This document shows positions 2,917 to 25,180 of a stretch of DNA of 43,380 bases, piece after piece. The translations under genes were made by a program, and so were the position numbers. The notes beneath the pieces were generated by a model. The model was not told the origin of the DNA and did no database searches. It saw only the letters and a program-made list of their open reading frames with translations. Source of the stretch: Xanthobacter autotrophicus (GTDB taxonomy: Bacteria; Pseudomonadota; Alphaproteobacteria; Rhizobiales; Xanthobacteraceae); NCBI RefSeq assembly GCF_030015065.1, contig NZ_JAIVFN010000026.1, positions 1-43,380 of the forward strand, in the 5' to 3' direction. Positions within the stretch are counted from its first letter, which is position 1. Each line of letters starts with the position of its first letter.

Positions 2917-4629
2917 ATGAAGCTCATCGTCGAACGTCTGGTCGTCGAATCCCTCGTCGAAGCCTTTCCCGATCAGGCGCACCTTCTGGCCCAGCCGCGC
3001 CTTTCGAGCCGCATGGAACTGGGGCTCGACACGCTCAAGCCCGACGAGCTGGCGCATCTGCATGATTTGGTGCTGAAGAATGGCGGCACCGCCGTGCGCG
3101 GGCAGGAGGAGCAGCTCGCCAACCTCGTCGGCGTGTTCAAGGACGAGGGCCGGCGCTTCGCGCCGGAGGAGCTGGAAGACCTCGCGGGCGAGCTCGCCCT
3201 CTATTTCGTGAATGCCTCCATCCGCGGCTGGCTGTTCCGCATGAATCCCGGCGGCAAGCCGGAGCCCTACCTCATCACCCGGCTCGACTACACGCCCCCC
3301 GGCGAGGAAGAGGCCGGCCGCGTCATCATCGAGCTGAAGGCCAACAATCGCGGCAAGATCCATGTGGAGAATTTGCTGATCCGCTCCAAGGACCTGCGCG
3401 GCCTCACCATTCCCGGTACGCTGGCGGCCAAGGGCTGGCTGATGGAGGACGAGGGGCTGCTCGCCTCCTTCGACGACCAGATGGTGCGCTATTTCGAGTG
3501 GCGCGCGCGCTACGGCCACCAGTTTTCCGCTACCGGCACCGGCATCTTCGCCGAGGACCCCACCGCCAACCGCCGCGACACCGACTGGGCCCGCAAGTCC
3601 GTCATCGTCCTGTCCTCCTCGGGCTCCGAGGCGCGCCTCGTGAACGACGAGGAACTGCTGGGCGAGCGCACCCTGGGCAACGAGACCTCGGGCTTCTTTC
3701 TCGACAAGATCGTGAAGAAGGCGGACAAGCAGAACCTCTTCCACATGGCGGTGGACGAGGCGCTGAAGGCGGCGCAGGCGAACGTCCGCAAGGGCTCGTT
3801 CACCGACATGCCGGTGCATCCCCTGATCCTCATGTTCCACCTGGAGTTGCACCACCACGTCTGGGTGCACGTGGACGACATCCGTCCCTACGAATACCAC
3901 CCCGAGCTGAAACAGAAGCTGGTGCTGCCCCCCGAGCAGACCGACCTGATCGACATCCTCACCGCCGAGATGAACACGCTCATGGACGACGTGGTGGCGG
4001 GCAAGTCCGGCGGCACCACGGTCTTGTGCGCCGGCCCGCCCGGCGTCGGCAAGACGCTGACCGCCGAGGTCTATTCGGAGATCATCCAGCGCCCGCTCTA
4101 CCGCGTGCATTCCGGCCAGCTCGGCCTCGACGTGGCGCACATGGAGCAGGCGCTGAAGGATGCCCTCACCCGCGCCCAGCGCTGGGGCGCGGTGATGCTC
4201 ATCGACGAGGCGGACGTCTACATCAAGCGCCGGCAGGACAACCTCACCATGAACGCGGTGGTGGGCGTGTTCCTGCGCGTGCTCGAATACTTCAATGGCC
4301 TGCTCTTCCTCACCACCAACCGGGTGGACGACATCGACGAGGCCATCATCTCGCGCTGCATCGCGCTCATCAAATACCATTCGCCTGGCCCGGACGACCG
4401 GCGCAAGATCTGGCGGGTGATGGCGGACCAGTTCGGCCTCGCCCTCACCGACGAGCTGATCGGCAAGCTGGTGGTGATGTTCCCGGAGACCTCCGGGCGC
4501 GACATCAAGGGCCTCGCCAAGCTGGTGGCGAAATATTGCTCCCAGAAGAACGAGCCGCCCACCATTGACGCGTTCCGTCGCTGCGCCATCTTCCGCGCCC
4601 TCGACGTTCCGCCGCTGGAAGCCGCTTGA
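2917..4629 (+). CDS. AAA+ ATPase with large uncharacterised N-terminal domain, next to mosAB
   Basis: This 570-residue protein has a C-terminal AAA+ module and an N-terminal region of about 340 residues that I do not recognise. In the AAA part I see Walker A GPPGVGKT (373-380), Walker B VMLIDEAD with D430/E431, a sensor-1-like TTNRVDD and an arginine in AIISRCIAL. The AAA core most resembles proteins that carry the LTTNRV and RWGAV(L/M)L(L/I)DEAD signatures and are best known from fungi and scattered bacteria; their substrate is generally unknown. No signal peptide or membrane segment is evident, so it is likely cytoplasmic. The start has a reasonable ribosome-binding site (GTGAGGCGG). It converges on mosA with a 303-base gap. 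A role in loading, unloading or remodelling the molybdenum storage complex is possible but is inference from position only. Confidence 0.85.
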   Translation: MKLIVERLVVESLVEAFPDQAHLLAQPRLSSRMELGLDTLKPDELAHLHDLVLKNGGTAVRGQEEQLANLVGVFKDEGRRFAPEELEDLAGELALYFVNASIRGWLFRMNPGGKPEPYLITRLDYTPPGEEEAGRVIIELKANNRGKIHVENLLIRSKDLRGLTIPGTLAAKGWLMEDEGLLASFDDQMVRYFEWRARYGHQFSATGTGIFAEDPTANRRDTDWARKSVIVLSSSGSEARLVNDEELLGERTLGNETSGFFLDKIVKKADKQNLFHMAVDEALKAAQANVRKGSFTDMPVHPLILMFHLELHHHVWVHVDDIRPYEYHPELKQKLVLPPEQTDLIDILTAEMNTLMDDVVAGKSGGTTVLCAGPPGVGKTLTAEVYSEIIQRPLYRVHSGQLGLDVAHMEQALKDALTRAQRWGAVMLIDEADVYIKRRQDNLTMNAVVGVFLRVLEYFNGLLFLTTNRVDDIDEAIISRCIALIKYHSPGPDDRRKIWRVMADQFGLALTDELIGKLVVMFPETSGRDIKGLAKLVAKYCSQKNEPPTIDAFRRCAIFRALDVPPLEAA

Positions 4630-4932
4630 GCTTTCGGGGGCTCATCCGGCCGGCATCATCCGGCCGGCAATGGAACGCTGGCGCGGATCGGGGCTTCCTG
4701 TCCGGGAAGGCTCGTGCGCGTCGCAGGTCCAAGCACGCATGGCAGACGCCCGTCACCCCTCGTCGCAAGGCCGGGCATGACGACGCGCAGGGGAGCGCGG
4801 GGCGAATTATCGGCCGCGCTTTTTAGAGCGCGATCAGATCAGATCGCGTGCTCTTGCCGTTGAGCGACAGGCTCGCCGATCAGGCTGACCCAGCCTGATC
4901 GGCTCCGGCCCTGGGAAAGGGCGTGCCTGCGC
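4630..4932. other. Convergent intergenic region between AAA ATPase and mosA
   Basis: No gene is supported. From left to right it contains a direct repeat of CATCCGGCCGGC (4643-4654 and 4657-4668), an inverted copy of the GTCATGCCCGGC core (4770-4781), an imperfect stem GCGATC/GATCGC around 4830-4847 with GAGC/GCTC flanks, and a strong 12-bp hairpin at 4875-4903. This is where transcripts from both sides should end. Confidence 0.5.
4875..4903. terminator. 12-bp perfect hairpin between convergent genes, candidate bidirectional 3' end
   Basis: GCCGATCAGGCT (4875-4886) pairs exactly with AGCCTGATCGGC (4892-4903) around a GACCC loop. It sits 29 bases beyond the mosA stop and 245 bases beyond the ATPase stop. 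No T-run follows on either strand, so Rho-independent termination is not proven; it may act as an RNA 3'-end stabiliser. Confidence 0.45.
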
Positions 4933-5766
4933 TCAGTTGCGGCGGGCGCCGGTGTGGACGATGGTGCCCACATGCTCGCCGCGCAGGGCAGAGGTGAGCC
5001 GGCCCGGTACCAGGCCGTTCACCACCTGCACCCGCTCGATGTGGCGCGCGGTGGCCATCACATCGAGAAGCGCGCGGTCGAAAGGCAGCGTGCCTTCGCC
5101 GGTGGCGAGGTCGGCGGCGCTGACCTCGGGCAGGAACTTCGCTGCCGCGCCCTCGGGGCCGTTCGGATCGGCGGAATAGACGCCGTCCACGTCCTCCACG
5201 ATGGTCAGGCCCGCCGCGCCCATCGCATCGGCCAGCAGGAAGGCGCCGGTATCGGCCCGGTGGACCGGGATGCGCGAGCCCGGGAATTCGTGGTGGTGGT
5301 AGGGCGGAAAGGCGCTGCCCACCACGGCGCGGGCGGCGGACAGGTGGATGGCGAGCTGGCTCGCGATGGTCGGGTGCTCCACGTAGGAGACGCCTTCCGG
5401 CGCCAGAAGCGAGGCCAGGATATGGCCGTTCTGGCCGGCCTCGCTGGCGGCGAGCGGGGCGAGCGAGCCCACCGGCAGGCCGAGGTCGAGGCCGACGCCA
5501 TAGAGGTGGCGGGCGCGGATGCCGGCGCCGGTGAGGATGAGCAGGCGGTGCTCCGGCAGCAGCTTGCGGATCTCGTCCACGATGGGGAGGATCGCCTTCG
5601 GGCCGCGATCCATGATGGATCGGCCGCCGATCTTCACCACCTGCAGCCAGGGCAGGAGGCGGATCGGACGCACCCCGGCGACGGGGCGGGTGAGCTGGCC
5701 GTCGAGGAGGGTCTGGCGCGCGAGGGGCGAGGCGACGTGCTTGATGTCGTTGGTGGTATCAGACAT
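4933..5766 (-). CDS. mosA: Molybdenum storage protein subunit alpha (MosA)
   Basis: This 277-residue protein is one of the two subunits of the cytoplasmic molybdenum storage protein, an alpha3beta3 cage that in Azotobacter vinelandii deposits about a hundred Mo atoms as polyoxomolybdate clusters using ATP. It has the amino-acid-kinase/UMP-kinase fold: glycine loop VVKIGGR (43-49), GAGIRARH (80-87), DTGAFLLAD (172-180) and [12 protein letters not shown] (190-201). The MoSto-specific sequence HHHEFPGSR (157-165) is intact. By my recollection of the A. vinelandii sequence (276 residues, one residue shorter before this region) the cluster-binding residues Glu129, His140 and His156 would be Glu130, His141 and His157 here, all present. 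It follows mosB by 12 bases on the same strand, so the two are made from one mRNA, in keeping with the heterohexamer. Confidence 0.95.
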
Positions 5767-5778
5767 GGCCGTTCTTTT

Positions 5779-6591
5779 TCAGCTCGCGGTGATGATGGTG
5801 CCGACATGCTCGCCGGCGAGCGCGCGGGTCAGATTGCCGGGGATGAGGCCGTTCACGACCTGCACCTCGCGCACATGGCGGGCCTTCTTGAGCAGGTCGA
5901 GCATCGGGAACTCGAGGATCGAGTCGGCGAGGCCCCGCGCCAGCATCTCGTCCACCGAGATTTTGGGGATGAAGGTGGCGTTCTTGTCCGTCTTCGGGTT
6001 GGCGGTGTAGAGGCCGTCCTCGTCCTTCACGAAGATCATCGCCTTGCAGCCGAACTGCTCGGCCAAAAGGAAGCAGCCGGCGTCGGTGCGGTAGGGCGGG
6101 ATGACGCCCTCGGCGGCGGGGCGCGTCCACAGCGAGTAGGGTGGCATTCCGCCGAACACGACGGCGTTGACTTCCGCAAGGTAGAGCGGCACCGCCGAGA
6201 GCCCGGCGCCGTCCACCTTGGAGATGCCGTGCTTCGCCAGGAGCTGCCCCAGCATCTCGGCGTTCTGGTCGGCCACCGACGCGCCGAGCTGGGCGAGCAC
6301 GCCCGCCGGCAGGTTCAGCTCCGCCGCGATGGAATAAAGGTGCCGGGCGCGGGTGCCGGCGCCGGTCCCGATCAGCAGCTTGTGGGTCTTGCGGGCGGCG
6401 ACGATCTCGTCGATGAGCGGGTACACTGCGGCGCGGCCGCGGTCGATGACGCTCTGGCCGCCGATCTTGAGCACCGTCGCGCCCGGTAGGATGCGGAAGT
6501 CCGCCGCCGCGTCCGCCGCCGCCAGAAGCTGCGGGTCGGTCAGGGATCGCTGCGAGAGGAGCGTTTCGAGCTCCGCCGTCGTGTTGGCCAT
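5779..6591 (-). CDS. mosB: Molybdenum storage protein subunit beta (MosB)
   Basis: This 270-residue subunit is the partner of MosA and has exactly the length of the Azotobacter beta subunit. It shares the amino-acid-kinase fold with the glycine loop VLKIGGQSVIDRG near residues 40-52, GTGAGTRARHLYS near 75-87, the segment RTDAGCFLLAEQFGCKAM and the nucleotide-site block FVKDEDGLYTANPKT. The C-terminal part (VREVQVVNGLIPGNLTRALAGEHVGT) resembles the corresponding end of MosA, showing common ancestry of the two subunits. The ribosome-binding site GAAAGG lies about 8 bases before the ATG. It is the first gene of the mosB-mosA pair and is preceded by a 236-base gap that carries two perfect dyads, so this is where the pair's promoter and operator should be. 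Confidence 0.95.
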   Translation of the reverse strand: MANTTAELETLLSQRSLTDPQLLAAADAAADFRILPGATVLKIGGQSVIDRGRAAVYPLIDEIVAARKTHKLLIGTGAGTRARHLYSIAAELNLPAGVLAQLGASVADQNAEMLGQLLAKHGISKVDGAGLSAVPLYLAEVNAVVFGGMPPYSLWTRPAAEGVIPPYRTDAGCFLLAEQFGCKAMIFVKDEDGLYTANPKTDKNATFIPKISVDEMLARGLADSILEFPMLDLLKKARHVREVQVVNGLIPGNLTRALAGEHVGTIITAS

Positions 6592-6662
6592 GGATCTGCC
6601 TTTCGTCGTTTCGGTTTGTTGCTTTTGCTTTGAGCGTCTCGATACGTCCCAGGGAATCGAGC

Positions 6663-6682
6663 CGCAATATGTGGAGATTGCG
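6663..6682. promoter_or_regulatory. Perfect dyad CGCAAT-N8-ATTGCG in the mosB leader
   Basis: CGCAAT (6663-6668) and its exact complement ATTGCG (6677-6682) form a 20-bp symmetrical site about 72-92 bases upstream of the mosB start codon. It is immediately adjacent to a second perfect dyad. The size fits a dimeric helix-turn-helix protein. Which protein binds is unknown; the HTH/molybdate-binding-like regulator encoded just upstream is the obvious candidate. Confidence 0.4.
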
Positions 6683-6686
6683 CGCC

Positions 6687-6705
6687 TTTTCCCGGACAGG
6701 GAAAA
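6687..6705. promoter_or_regulatory. Perfect palindrome TTTTCCC-N5-GGGAAAA in the mosB leader
   Basis: TTTTCCC (6687-6693) and GGGAAAA (6699-6705) are exact complements around GGACA. It lies four bases from the CGCAAT dyad. It could be read as a hairpin terminator of the upstream regulator gene, but on that (minus) strand the 3' arm runs into A's rather than T's, so an operator or promoter element is the better reading. Confidence 0.4.
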
Positions 6706-6827
6706 AACGACTGAAAATGCACAGGTAGTATTTCTGGTCGACGACGTTTCGGGGGTGTCGAAGATCAGTCATCGCGGAGTAAAACGGTGGGGATCGTGAG
6801 CGGAATGCTGCCGGCGGGCCCTGCCTG

Positions 6828-7718
6828 TCAGCAGCAATTGTAGCGCACCGTCCCGAAGCCCGAGATGTCGTAGCCACCGAGATCCGCGGCGCGGGCGGCG
6901 AAGGCCGGCGCGTGGCAGAAGGTCACGAGCTTCTGGAACGGCGGATCGAAATAGGATTTGCGCCAGACGAGGAGGTCGAACCGCTCCTCCAGCAGCGGCA
7001 GGAAGCGTAGATTGTGCAGGCGCGCGGCCGCCTCGATGCCCAGCCCCACGTCCGCCCGCCCGGTTGAGATGGCCAGCGCCAGATCGGTTTCCGTGCGTTC
7101 GATGGCCTTCACCGGGCGCAGGTCCGCGCGTTTCATCTTTTCCTCGGACAGGAGGCGGTCCAGCACCAGCTCGCTGCCCGCTTCCGGCTGCCGTGACTGG
7201 AAGCGCAGGCCCCGCACGTCCTTCAGGCATGACGGCGGCCTCGCAATGTCCGGCCGGTAGATGAGGCCGCGCACCCGTCGCGCCCACTCGATCAGCACCC
7301 ATGGCTCGCGGCGGAAGCGGCCTTCCACCGCGCCCACGTTCCAGCCATCGGGCTCGGGCACGTGCAGGCCCACGGCGATGCATTCCCCCCGCTCGGCTCG
7401 CTGCAGCCCGTCGAGTGCGCCATCGAAGAAGGCGGCGATGCCGGAGCGTGACTCGCGCAGCGCCCATTCCAGCAGCGGGTCGTGTCCGCCGGCGAGGATC
7501 AGGGGCGGCTGCGAATGCTCGCTCGCCGCAGGCGCGTCCTCCGCTGCGCGCGCCTCGCCGGCGCCGCCGATCCAGCTTTCGATTTCCTTGCGCGGAAACA
7601 GGAGCTTGCCGGTCACCCGCCGTACCGGAAGGCTGCCCGCGGCAACGAGGTCGTAGACCTTGCGCTCCTTGACGCGAAGCAGCGCCGCCAGCTCGCGGGT
7701 GGTTAGGAAGTCCGACAT
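6828..7718 (-). CDS. One-component regulator: excisionase-type HTH plus molybdate-binding-protein-like domain
   Basis: This 296-residue protein begins with an excisionase-family winged HTH (about 4-50: LTTRELAALLRVKERKVYDL ... RKEIESW), then a short linker, then a domain of about 215 residues that resembles the periplasmic molybdate-binding-protein fold without signal peptide (the cytoplasmic PBP-like domain family, COG1910 type). Such fusions are commonly proposed to sense molybdate or tungstate directly and control molybdenum genes. It ends unusually in two adjacent cysteines (YNCC). The ATG at 7718 gives a protein starting right at the HTH; a GTG at 7736 in frame would add six residues, and neither start has an ideal ribosome-binding site. 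It lies upstream of mosB-mosA on the same strand and diverges from the mogA homologue, so it probably regulates one or both. Ligand and targets are inferred. Confidence 0.82.
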   Translation of the reverse strand: MSDFLTTRELAALLRVKERKVYDLVAAGSLPVRRVTGKLLFPRKEIESWIGGAGEARAAEDAPAASEHSQPPLILAGGHDPLLEWALRESRSGIAAFFDGALDGLQRAERGECIAVGLHVPEPDGWNVGAVEGRFRREPWVLIEWARRVRGLIYRPDIARPPSCLKDVRGLRFQSRQPEAGSELVLDRLLSEEKMKRADLRPVKAIERTETDLALAISTGRADVGLGIEAAARLHNLRFLPLLEERFDLLVWRKSYFDPPFQKLVTFCHAPAFAARAADLGGYDISGFGTVRYNCC

Positions 7719-7743
7719 GCTCCGGTGCACCGTCACGGCGAGA

Positions 7744-7796
7744 TCCGTAGAAAAAAGCGTGTTTCACATATATTTGCACGTATACAGTTCTGCGGA
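7744..7796. promoter_or_regulatory. Divergent regulatory region between regulator and mogA with imperfect dyads
   Basis: The 192-base gap between the two divergent genes holds an AT-rich island in otherwise GC-rich DNA. TCCGTAGAA (7744-7752) is an 8/9 inverted match to TTCTGCGGA (7788-7796), and between them CATATA-N8-TATAC resembles the TATA-spaced symmetry of ModE-type sites. It should contain promoters for both genes; exact elements are not resolved. Confidence 0.35.
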
Positions 7797-7910
7797 AAGA
7801 GCAACTCGGTCGCGGCGTGCGCCCCCGACGGGCCGGGAGTGGATGCGGGCTTGCATTTGGGCGCGGGTCGCGCCAGCACAGGTCGATCCTTTTCCGCCGG
7901 AACGCACCCC

Positions 7911-8444
7911 ATGGCACCTGCACGCATCGGCATCGTCACCATTTCGGACCGCGCCAGCTCCGGCGGCTATGCGGATCTTTCGGGCCCGGCCATCGAGGCG
8001 TGGCTGAGGCATGCCATCACCACCCCTTGGAGCGCCGACGCCCGTATCATCCCGGACGGCTTCGAGAGCGTCCGCGATACCCTGATCGACATGTGCGACA
8101 CTGCGGGCCTCGATCTCATCTGCACCACCGGCGGCACTGGCCCCGCCCCCCGCGACCTCACCCCGGAGGCCATGGCGGCGGTGATCGAGAAGCCCTTGCC
8201 CGGCTTTGGCGAGCAGATGCGCCGCATCAGCCTCCAGGAGGTGCCCACCGCCATCCTGTCGCGGCAGGAGGCGGGCGTGCGCGGCAGGACCCTGATCGTG
8301 AACCTGCCGGGCAAGCCGGCATCCATCGCGGTGTGCCTCGCGGCCGTGTTCCCGGCCATCCCCTATTGCCTCGACCTCATCGGCGCCCGGCGCATCGAGA
8401 CCGACCCGGCGGTGTGCGCCGCGTTCCGCCCCAAGGGGGCGTGA
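7911..8444 (+). CDS. mogA: Molybdopterin adenylyltransferase (MogA type)
   Basis: This 177-residue cytoplasmic enzyme adenylylates molybdopterin to prepare it for metal insertion in molybdenum cofactor synthesis. It shows the MoCF-biosynthesis fold motifs: GIVTISDRAS (7-16), IIPDG with Asp49, the signature TTGGTGPAPRD (72-82, ending in Asp82), and near the end SRQEAGVRGRTLIVNLPGKP. Asp49 and Asp82 coincide with the numbering I recall for functionally important aspartates of E. coli MogA. The chosen ATG gives the family length (about 180-195); longer in-frame starts upstream would run through the AT-rich regulatory region. It diverges from the HTH/PBP-like regulator and sits close to mosBA, so the neighbourhood couples molybdenum storage with its use in cofactor. 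Confidence 0.92.
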   Translation: MAPARIGIVTISDRASSGGYADLSGPAIEAWLRHAITTPWSADARIIPDGFESVRDTLIDMCDTAGLDLICTTGGTGPAPRDLTPEAMAAVIEKPLPGFGEQMRRISLQEVPTAILSRQEAGVRGRTLIVNLPGKPASIAVCLAAVFPAIPYCLDLIGARRIETDPAVCAAFRPKGA

Positions 8445-25105: not shown

Positions 25106-25180
25106 GCGGGCGTAGTTCAGTGGTAGAACGACAGCTTCCCAAGCTGTATGTCGTGGGTTCGATTCCCATCGCCCGCTCCA
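25106..25180 (+). tRNA. tRNA-Gly (anticodon CCC)
   Basis: The sequence folds as a complete cloverleaf: acceptor GCGGGCG/CGCCCGC (25106-25112 with 25170-25176), D stem GTTC/GAAC, anticodon stem ACAGC/GCTGT with loop TTCCCAA giving anticodon CCC, and T arm GTGGG-TTCGATT-CCCAT. Discriminator T and an encoded CCA (25178-25180) follow. It decodes GGG glycine codons. It stands alone, between the divergent aminopeptidase gene and the convergent YhaN-like gene; no attachment-site duplication was noticed next to it. Confidence 0.97.

Follow-up and report, generated by a model that had tools for sequence, protein, structure and literature searches.

The stretch of DNA analysed here, 43,380 nt of a contig from Xanthobacter autotrophicus (NZ_JAIVFN010000026.1; in the following the window), carries the genes of the molybdenum storage protein MoSto next to a gene for a candidate regulator. 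That is, on the minus strand we find mosA (4933-5766) and mosB (5779-6591), encoding the MoSto alpha and beta subunits, followed by a gene that we call HTHPBP (6828-7736) for its helix-turn-helix (HTH) and periplasmic-binding-protein (PBP)-like domains. They are flanked on the plus strand by a gene for an AAA ATPase (2917-4629; Pfam AAA, E 1.5e-16) and by mogA, encoding a molybdopterin adenylyltransferase (7911-8444; NCBIfam 259 bits vs. a cut-off of 158). The ATPase gene and mosA are convergent, and HTHPBP and mogA are divergent with 174 bp between them. Both mos products match their Azotobacter vinelandii counterparts over nearly their full length (alpha E 2.3e-149, beta E 4.2e-152), i.e., the locus encodes two paralogous subunits of amino-acid-kinase fold in tandem that are homologues of the A. 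vinelandii pair. The five genes are real, their matches being too strong for chance. They also lie where an earlier reading of the sequence alone had placed mosB-mosA, an HTH/PBP-like regulator, a MogA homologue and a convergent AAA+ ATPase.

HTHPBP encodes a TaoR-like (COG1910-type) protein of 302 aa with a GTG start at 7736 (an alternative ATG is at 7718). It contains the domains HTH_17 (PF12728, E 1.3e-11) and PBP_like (PF12727, E 1.7e-47). Its AlphaFold model (mean pLDDT 90) shows a small HTH N-terminus joined to the PBP-like domain. Foldseek matches this model to regulators of the LysR type and to various binding proteins, with the tungstate-binding 3lr1 at rank 42. Since these matches are PBP folds in general, the ligand is not readable from the fold. 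No relative by sequence was found in the PDB at E <= 10.

Next, we studied the distribution of the regulator, where G and L numbers denote our genomes and loci, respectively, and G000 is the window's own genome. Counting distant PBP proteins as well, relatives of HTHPBP occur in 86 of 149 family genomes at E <= 1e-3; at E <= 1e-70 they are found in 57 of 297 genomes of the order. Outside Xanthobacter, their usual neighbours are tup genes, where the NCBIfam call of TupA remains below its cut-off (237 bits vs. 400). Within a tree of 60 relatives, the HTHPBP of the window falls into a clade of 20 rows (support 100/100, stem 0.46). For none of these 20 rows was tupA or tupB found in the examined flanking DNA, and 32 of the 40 rows outside the clade have tup genes within ~4 kb, according to a label assigned by hand. 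The clade consists of ten Xanthobacter rows, G185, G352 and eight genomes that a search of mosB carriers had yielded. Including G501 (65% identity), which was found later and is outside the tree, 21 clade members are known.

Most of them (19/21) reside in mosB-bearing genomes; one that does not is G352. Among the 297 genomes of the order, mosB is present in two (the window's own and G185), both with the clade regulator adjacent, and is absent from the 54 other genomes that bear a more distant HTHPBP relative. Within the genus of G185 (5 genomes), mosB and the clade regulator are found in G185 alone, where the two genes are adjacent and diverge. Of the 20 genomes in the family of G352, 2 have a clade member, and a mosB search in this family, run without a positive control, was empty. 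For the reverse view, 50 of the 73 non-Xanthobacter mosB loci, hand-picked for taxonomic spread, were checked for the regulator. Here, 40 of the 50 genomes have no HTHPBP relative at E <= 1e-40 and 2 have a tup-type relative only (L013, L031). Thus, mosB does not require the clade regulator.

Two further settings of HTHPBP relatives were observed. In Rhodoblastus (G457, L301:5197-8949; G459, L302:5500-9197) the regulator stands beside genes for a class-V aminotransferase (nifS-like) and a homocitrate-synthase-like protein (Pfam, G459 only). Its other flank is read as glutamate synthase, with no family call, such that the setting looks like a nitrogen-fixation-related cluster. At L263, L267, L272, L286 and L288, tupABC and a TaoR-like relative come together with genes that we take to be formate-dehydrogenase-like, a label matched to one representative open reading frame, which suggests tungsten enzyme islands.

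The next neighbour of the clade regulator is a molybdate-storage gene in 8 of its 21 known members. In three of them this is mosBA (G000, G185, G474), and the three adjacencies fall on separate branches; direct linkage of the regulator to mosBA is thus rare. In the other five it is mop (G149, G153, G154, G352, G501), which encodes a TOBE protein of ~68 aa and is the next neighbour in both clade members without mosB (G352, G501). Within the slot between the ATPase gene and HTHPBP, mop is present in two copies in G149, three in G153 (in tandem, L202:9291-10178) and one in G154. Furthermore, mop lies ~3 kb from the regulator in G473, and in G094 it is found in the slot with the clade regulator being absent. 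Some tup-type loci also carry mop (e.g., L254, L258, L265, L285).

Independent support for a link between regulator and storage comes from a box shared among related genomes. The mosB upstream regions of regulator-bearing genomes have an 18-bp box in common (ATTTTCGCATATTGCGGG; box B), whose copy in the window, the candidate operator ATCTCCACATATTGCGGC (6661-6678, minus strand), is the only match scoring >=11 in the 43-kb window and has a leave-lineage-out score of 16.3. Box B was first spotted by eye, and the cut-off of 12 was chosen after the scores were seen. With the model fitted without the tested lineage, the 19 regulator-plus mosB promoters score 12.2-27.9. In 17 of these 19 genomes the box is located at -81 to -92 from the mosB ATG, and near -173 in G145 and G073.

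We compared these values with regulator-minus genomes, i.e., those with no match at E <= 1e-40, with a tup-type relative only (L013, L031) or with distant or no matches in the family search. The best score among 41 regulator-minus mosB rows with enough upstream DNA is 10.3, and 8 further regulator-minus loci from the family sample score <=10.2 (four more were repeats of rows in the count). Left out of these counts were G094 and seven Xanthobacter loci that are duplicates, and for two rows the upstream DNA was too short. When G094 is added, 49 of 50 tested regulator-minus mosB promoters score <=10.3, and the tally of box and regulator over the tested genomes is 19 with both, 49 with neither and one discordant (G094). 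Rows in which the regulator was not tested comprise 22 without and 3 with box B (G150, 19.6; G152, 14.8; Beggiatoa L082, 14.1). The site of L082, a metagenome-assembled genome, is box-like and lies 167 bp upstream of mosB. Among the regulator-minus loci, a degenerate site resembling the box (10.2) is seen in L144 (G060) where the box usually lies, 85 bp upstream of mosB, and the site of L058/L145 is weaker still (4.2), as though it had decayed.

Applied to mop, the mosB-trained model scores 26.7 (G473), 22.2 (G501) and 20.0 (G149) upstream of the gene, and these promoters do not show the remainder of the mosB promoter similarity. Control loci of 280 kb in total yield 5 matches of at least 13 and none of at least 17. 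The core GCATAW is also found before tupB of family-level relatives in 13/17 cases vs. 2.75 in shuffles (0/500 shuffles). If the box is required to be a strict direct repeat, the signal is weak, with matches in 3/19 mosB and 3/17 family tupB promoters.

A number of observations weigh against a regulatory link via box B. First, 8 of the 19 regulator-plus mosB genomes came from searching mosB carriers, which biases the raw co-occurrence. Second, box and regulator do not coincide everywhere: the box of G469 is marginal (12.2 held out) with the full model preferring a different place, the regulator-minus G094 keeps a weak site (13.1), and for the well-scoring G150 and G152 no regulator was found by DNA search. 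Third, not every storage or transport gene of interest carries the box. That is, mop upstream regions score 9.2 (G153, best of three genes), 9.5 (G154) and 4.2 (G352), GCATAW is not enriched before order-level tupB (3/13; 98/500 shuffles), and neither HTHPBP nor mogA is preceded by box B in the window. We hence rejected self-control of HTHPBP via box B in the window, given that the interval between regulator and mogA has no match. The mop gene of G094 has no box B upstream either.

Fourth, the mosB promoters of the regulator-plus set are alike beyond box B. Because of this, common descent explains some of the mosB promoter conservation, and one may ask whether a different factor (e.g., ModE) binds the box, or whether the box is a promoter element passed down in a single lineage of mosBA cassettes, the regulator being merely co-carried. 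In favour of such an explanation, the box may end in a -35 element on its 3' side, and ModE-type genes are near in G474 and G453. To relate box and descent, we placed the combined box/regulator trait on a mosB tree of 60 tested rows (excluding G094, whose mosB is broken). The best tree needs 5 changes (bootstraps 4-7; shuffles 16.3), and a single change suffices in none of 200 bootstrap trees. Counting only the branches with strong support, no more than 1 change is required, which again speaks against the regulatory link and is compatible with one trait origin. A trait gained once with later losses, or a single but poorly resolved origin, would therefore still agree with the tree. The box is, however, also found before mop, which is unrelated to mosB, in three genomes, and with one match in 43 kb it is not a general promoter. 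Together with the 5 changes, this leads us to consider another factor or lineage inheritance unlikely, though it is the most serious of the alternatives.

The position of box B permits a reading as part of a promoter. In the window, TTGCGG (6667-6662) is followed after a 17-bp spacer by TATCGA (6644-6639), such that a tentative promoter spans 6639-6667 on the minus strand (coordinates derived from the box position). In 11 of 20 mosB promoters, TTG at the box end is followed by TATC(A/C/G)A 17 bp on, with the first T of the latter kept in 17/20 and its A in 16/20. On average, 2.22 of the 6 TATAAT positions agree at a spacing of 17 bp, vs. 2.48 for 15 bp and 2.22 for 19 bp. Since the agreement at 17 bp is no better than at 15 or 19, the -35/-10 reading is tentative. 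A sigma-70 promoter with box B at -35 could fit an activator or a repressor. A sigma-54 promoter for mosB was rejected, as the sole near match (L068) is far upstream. A second conserved block further upstream, box A (TGCATTTTCAGTCGTTTTTTCC; 6700-6721, minus strand), was fitted on mosB upstream sequences and scores at least 17 in 15/17 of them, at -124 to -149. Upstream of the regulator gene itself, box A gives a weak signal (p <= 0.05 in 9/20, the window not being among them).

We also compared the genomic sites of mosBA within the genus. Including 132 bp upstream of mosB, the mosBA cassette (4923-6723, minus strand) has its best match at another site (G151:C1:716354-718154, 91%). It is conserved as a unit at a different site in sister genomes, where the empty sites could be aligned. 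The slot between the ATPase gene and HTHPBP is occupied by mosBA in only 2 of 14 genus genomes, G000 and G152, and in G152 no HTHPBP was found at the slot beside mosBA. Three sites are shared within the genus, namely by G041/G113/G130/G151, by G073/G145/G094 (downstream of ubiB) and by G000/G152. For G149, G150, G153 and G155, the mosBA flanks match no other genome (G154 is outside this comparison). This suggests that mosBA is a cassette that changes its place within the genus and carries its own promoter region. In the window genome it would have come to sit beside a TaoR-family regulator, in a slot that holds mop in several sister species. In G094 (L213:8665-9771), where the clade regulator is missing, mosB is matched in two overlapping pieces and mosA only in its last part, a possible decay. 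Among 72,556 plasmid records, 10 carry mosB at E <= 1e-40 (H1-H10), all from Azospirillum.

Such mobility raises the question whether mosBA got next to a molybdenum-related regulator by chance and without any regulatory link. The three shared sites and the unmatched flanks in four more genomes would be expected from neutral insertion, and the four genomes closest by the regulator tree (G041, G113, G130, G151) keep mosBA and regulator apart. Neutral insertion does not account for adjacency on three separate branches, for mop occupying the same slot in others or for the joint occurrence of box B and regulator. We thus regard it as improbable.

The other genes around mosBA behave differently. In the 14 Xanthobacter genomes, the ATPase gene, HTHPBP and mogA mostly stay grouped while mosBA changes place, with the ATPase gene and HTHPBP being direct neighbours without an intervening gene, and mosBA elsewhere, in 6/14 (G041, G073, G113, G130, G145, G151). 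In G150 and G155 neither of the two was found. For a wider view we sampled 80 mosB loci outside the window (3-20.8 kb each), many of which end at contig ends, so that absences are lower bounds; seven of them stem from the same genomes as Xanthobacter congeners of the 14-genome set. A good match to HTHPBP is found in 1/80 (L057, 59%; L012 has a 26% match), and neither the ATPase gene nor mogA is found in any of the 80. Beyond the genus, the family sample of 149 genomes has 7 orthologues of the ATPase, 5 of which are in genomes without mosB, while the orthologue is ~480 kb from mosB in G013 and on a different contig in G114.

These neighbourhoods bear on the sequence-only reading, which had proposed a module of sensor, storage cage, cofactor insertion step and perhaps a remodelling ATPase that evolved as a single storage/release unit. 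All members are indeed together in the window, and the ATPase gene and mogA flank mosBA in G152, too. Given that the wider comparison does not keep the ATPase gene or mogA beside mosBA, we reject the four-gene storage module, to which we assign next to no probability. The comparison of mosB neighbourhoods that it had called for does not support co-occurrence of the ATPase and mogA; the sensor part of the proposal survives. Because both genes are kept with the site while mosBA moves, the ATPase, which stays with HTHPBP, and MogA, a genus-level neighbour of HTHPBP, are on this evidence neighbours by inheritance of the site and not parts of a storage unit; they belong out of the model.

Further features of the window are ubiB, named by its Pfam ABC1 domain, a gene we presume to be ubiE from family resemblance, and a tRNA gene (25106-25177), which is the sole Rfam match in the window.

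The genes, the clade, its recurrent adjacency to storage genes and the association of box and regulator are established. We infer from here that HTHPBP binds the box, as well as its ligand and the sign of control. Judged by comparative sequence data, HTHPBP is probably a TaoR-family regulator of molybdenum storage that acts via the mosB/mop box, with mosBA being a moving cassette and ATPase and MogA bystanders. Its excisionase-like HTH is linked to a PBP domain that is cytoplasmic and whose ligand is probably molybdate, tungstate or both. The target of the protein would be a TTTTCGCATATTGC-type box ~85 bp ahead of mosB, reached in cis in the window and in trans in most of its sister genomes; in some genomes the same box ahead of mop would be a target as well. 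Given the possible -35 element at the 3' end of the box, activation at oxyanion surplus is slightly favoured, with repression almost as likely. A more far-reaching scenario, to which we give a little less than an even chance, is that a TaoR-family lineage left tungstate transport and became a dedicated regulator of molybdenum storage with its operator before mosBA and mop. Regulator and operator would have been jointly gained or lost more than once, and storage genes would have settled repeatedly beside the regulator.

The dedicated sensor of the sequence-only reading thus finds backing in the co-occurrence of clade and mosB, in the recurrence of mosBA or mop as next neighbour and in a promoter box that tracks the regulator; physical linkage to mosBA, from which it had been deduced, is rare. 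That is, the HTH/PBP protein is probably a sensor for storage, as had been held, but on evidence from outside the window. The control of MoSto becomes testable in tractable Xanthobacter, now that there is a candidate for the regulator, a box defined to 18 bp and a set of genomes sorted by presence or absence of the two. Moreover, two molybdenum stores, MoSto and Mop, are tied to one candidate switch.

Finally, we relate HTHPBP to known systems. ModE is a cytoplasmic molybdate-responsive DNA-binding protein that controls molybdenum genes. The role proposed for HTHPBP is the same, but ModE combines a LysR-type HTH with TOBE (such proteins are present in L057 and L304), neither of which is found in HTHPBP, where Pfam shows HTH_17 and PBP_like only. 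MoSto of A. vinelandii (PDB 2ogx and others) corresponds to the MoSto of the window, which is known from its genes, in both subunits over nearly their full length. They differ in that the A. vinelandii mosB promoter is without box B (best score 5.1), and no HTHPBP relative was found in its genome at E <= 1e-40. PMC6448029 describes the A. vinelandii MoSto level as similar at all molybdenum concentrations tested. Because no HTHPBP relative was found there, this independence is no test of the regulator idea. In the parts available to us of the literature on MoSto and its regulation (including PMC6448029 and PMC10581106), we found no transcriptional regulator described.

TupABC tungstate transporter loci flank many HTHPBP relatives outside the clade, but no such locus was found close to any of the 20 clade rows. 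The founding paper on the TaoR family of tungstate/molybdate regulators, Rajeev et al. 2019 (Environ Microbiol 21:784), reportedly predicted targets in several proteobacteria, and parts of the proposed regulon may have been published there. HTHPBP has the features of this family, i.e., the excisionase-like HTH_17 and the PBP_like domain as well as a genomic association with molybdenum/tungsten transport or enzymes. The likeness is one of architecture as described, namely HTH plus PBP-like in PMC11980592, and it extends to relatives of HTHPBP that adjoin tupABC. The clade of the window differs from the family in its neighbours, with tup genes near 0/20 rows and storage genes adjoining the regulator in 8/21.

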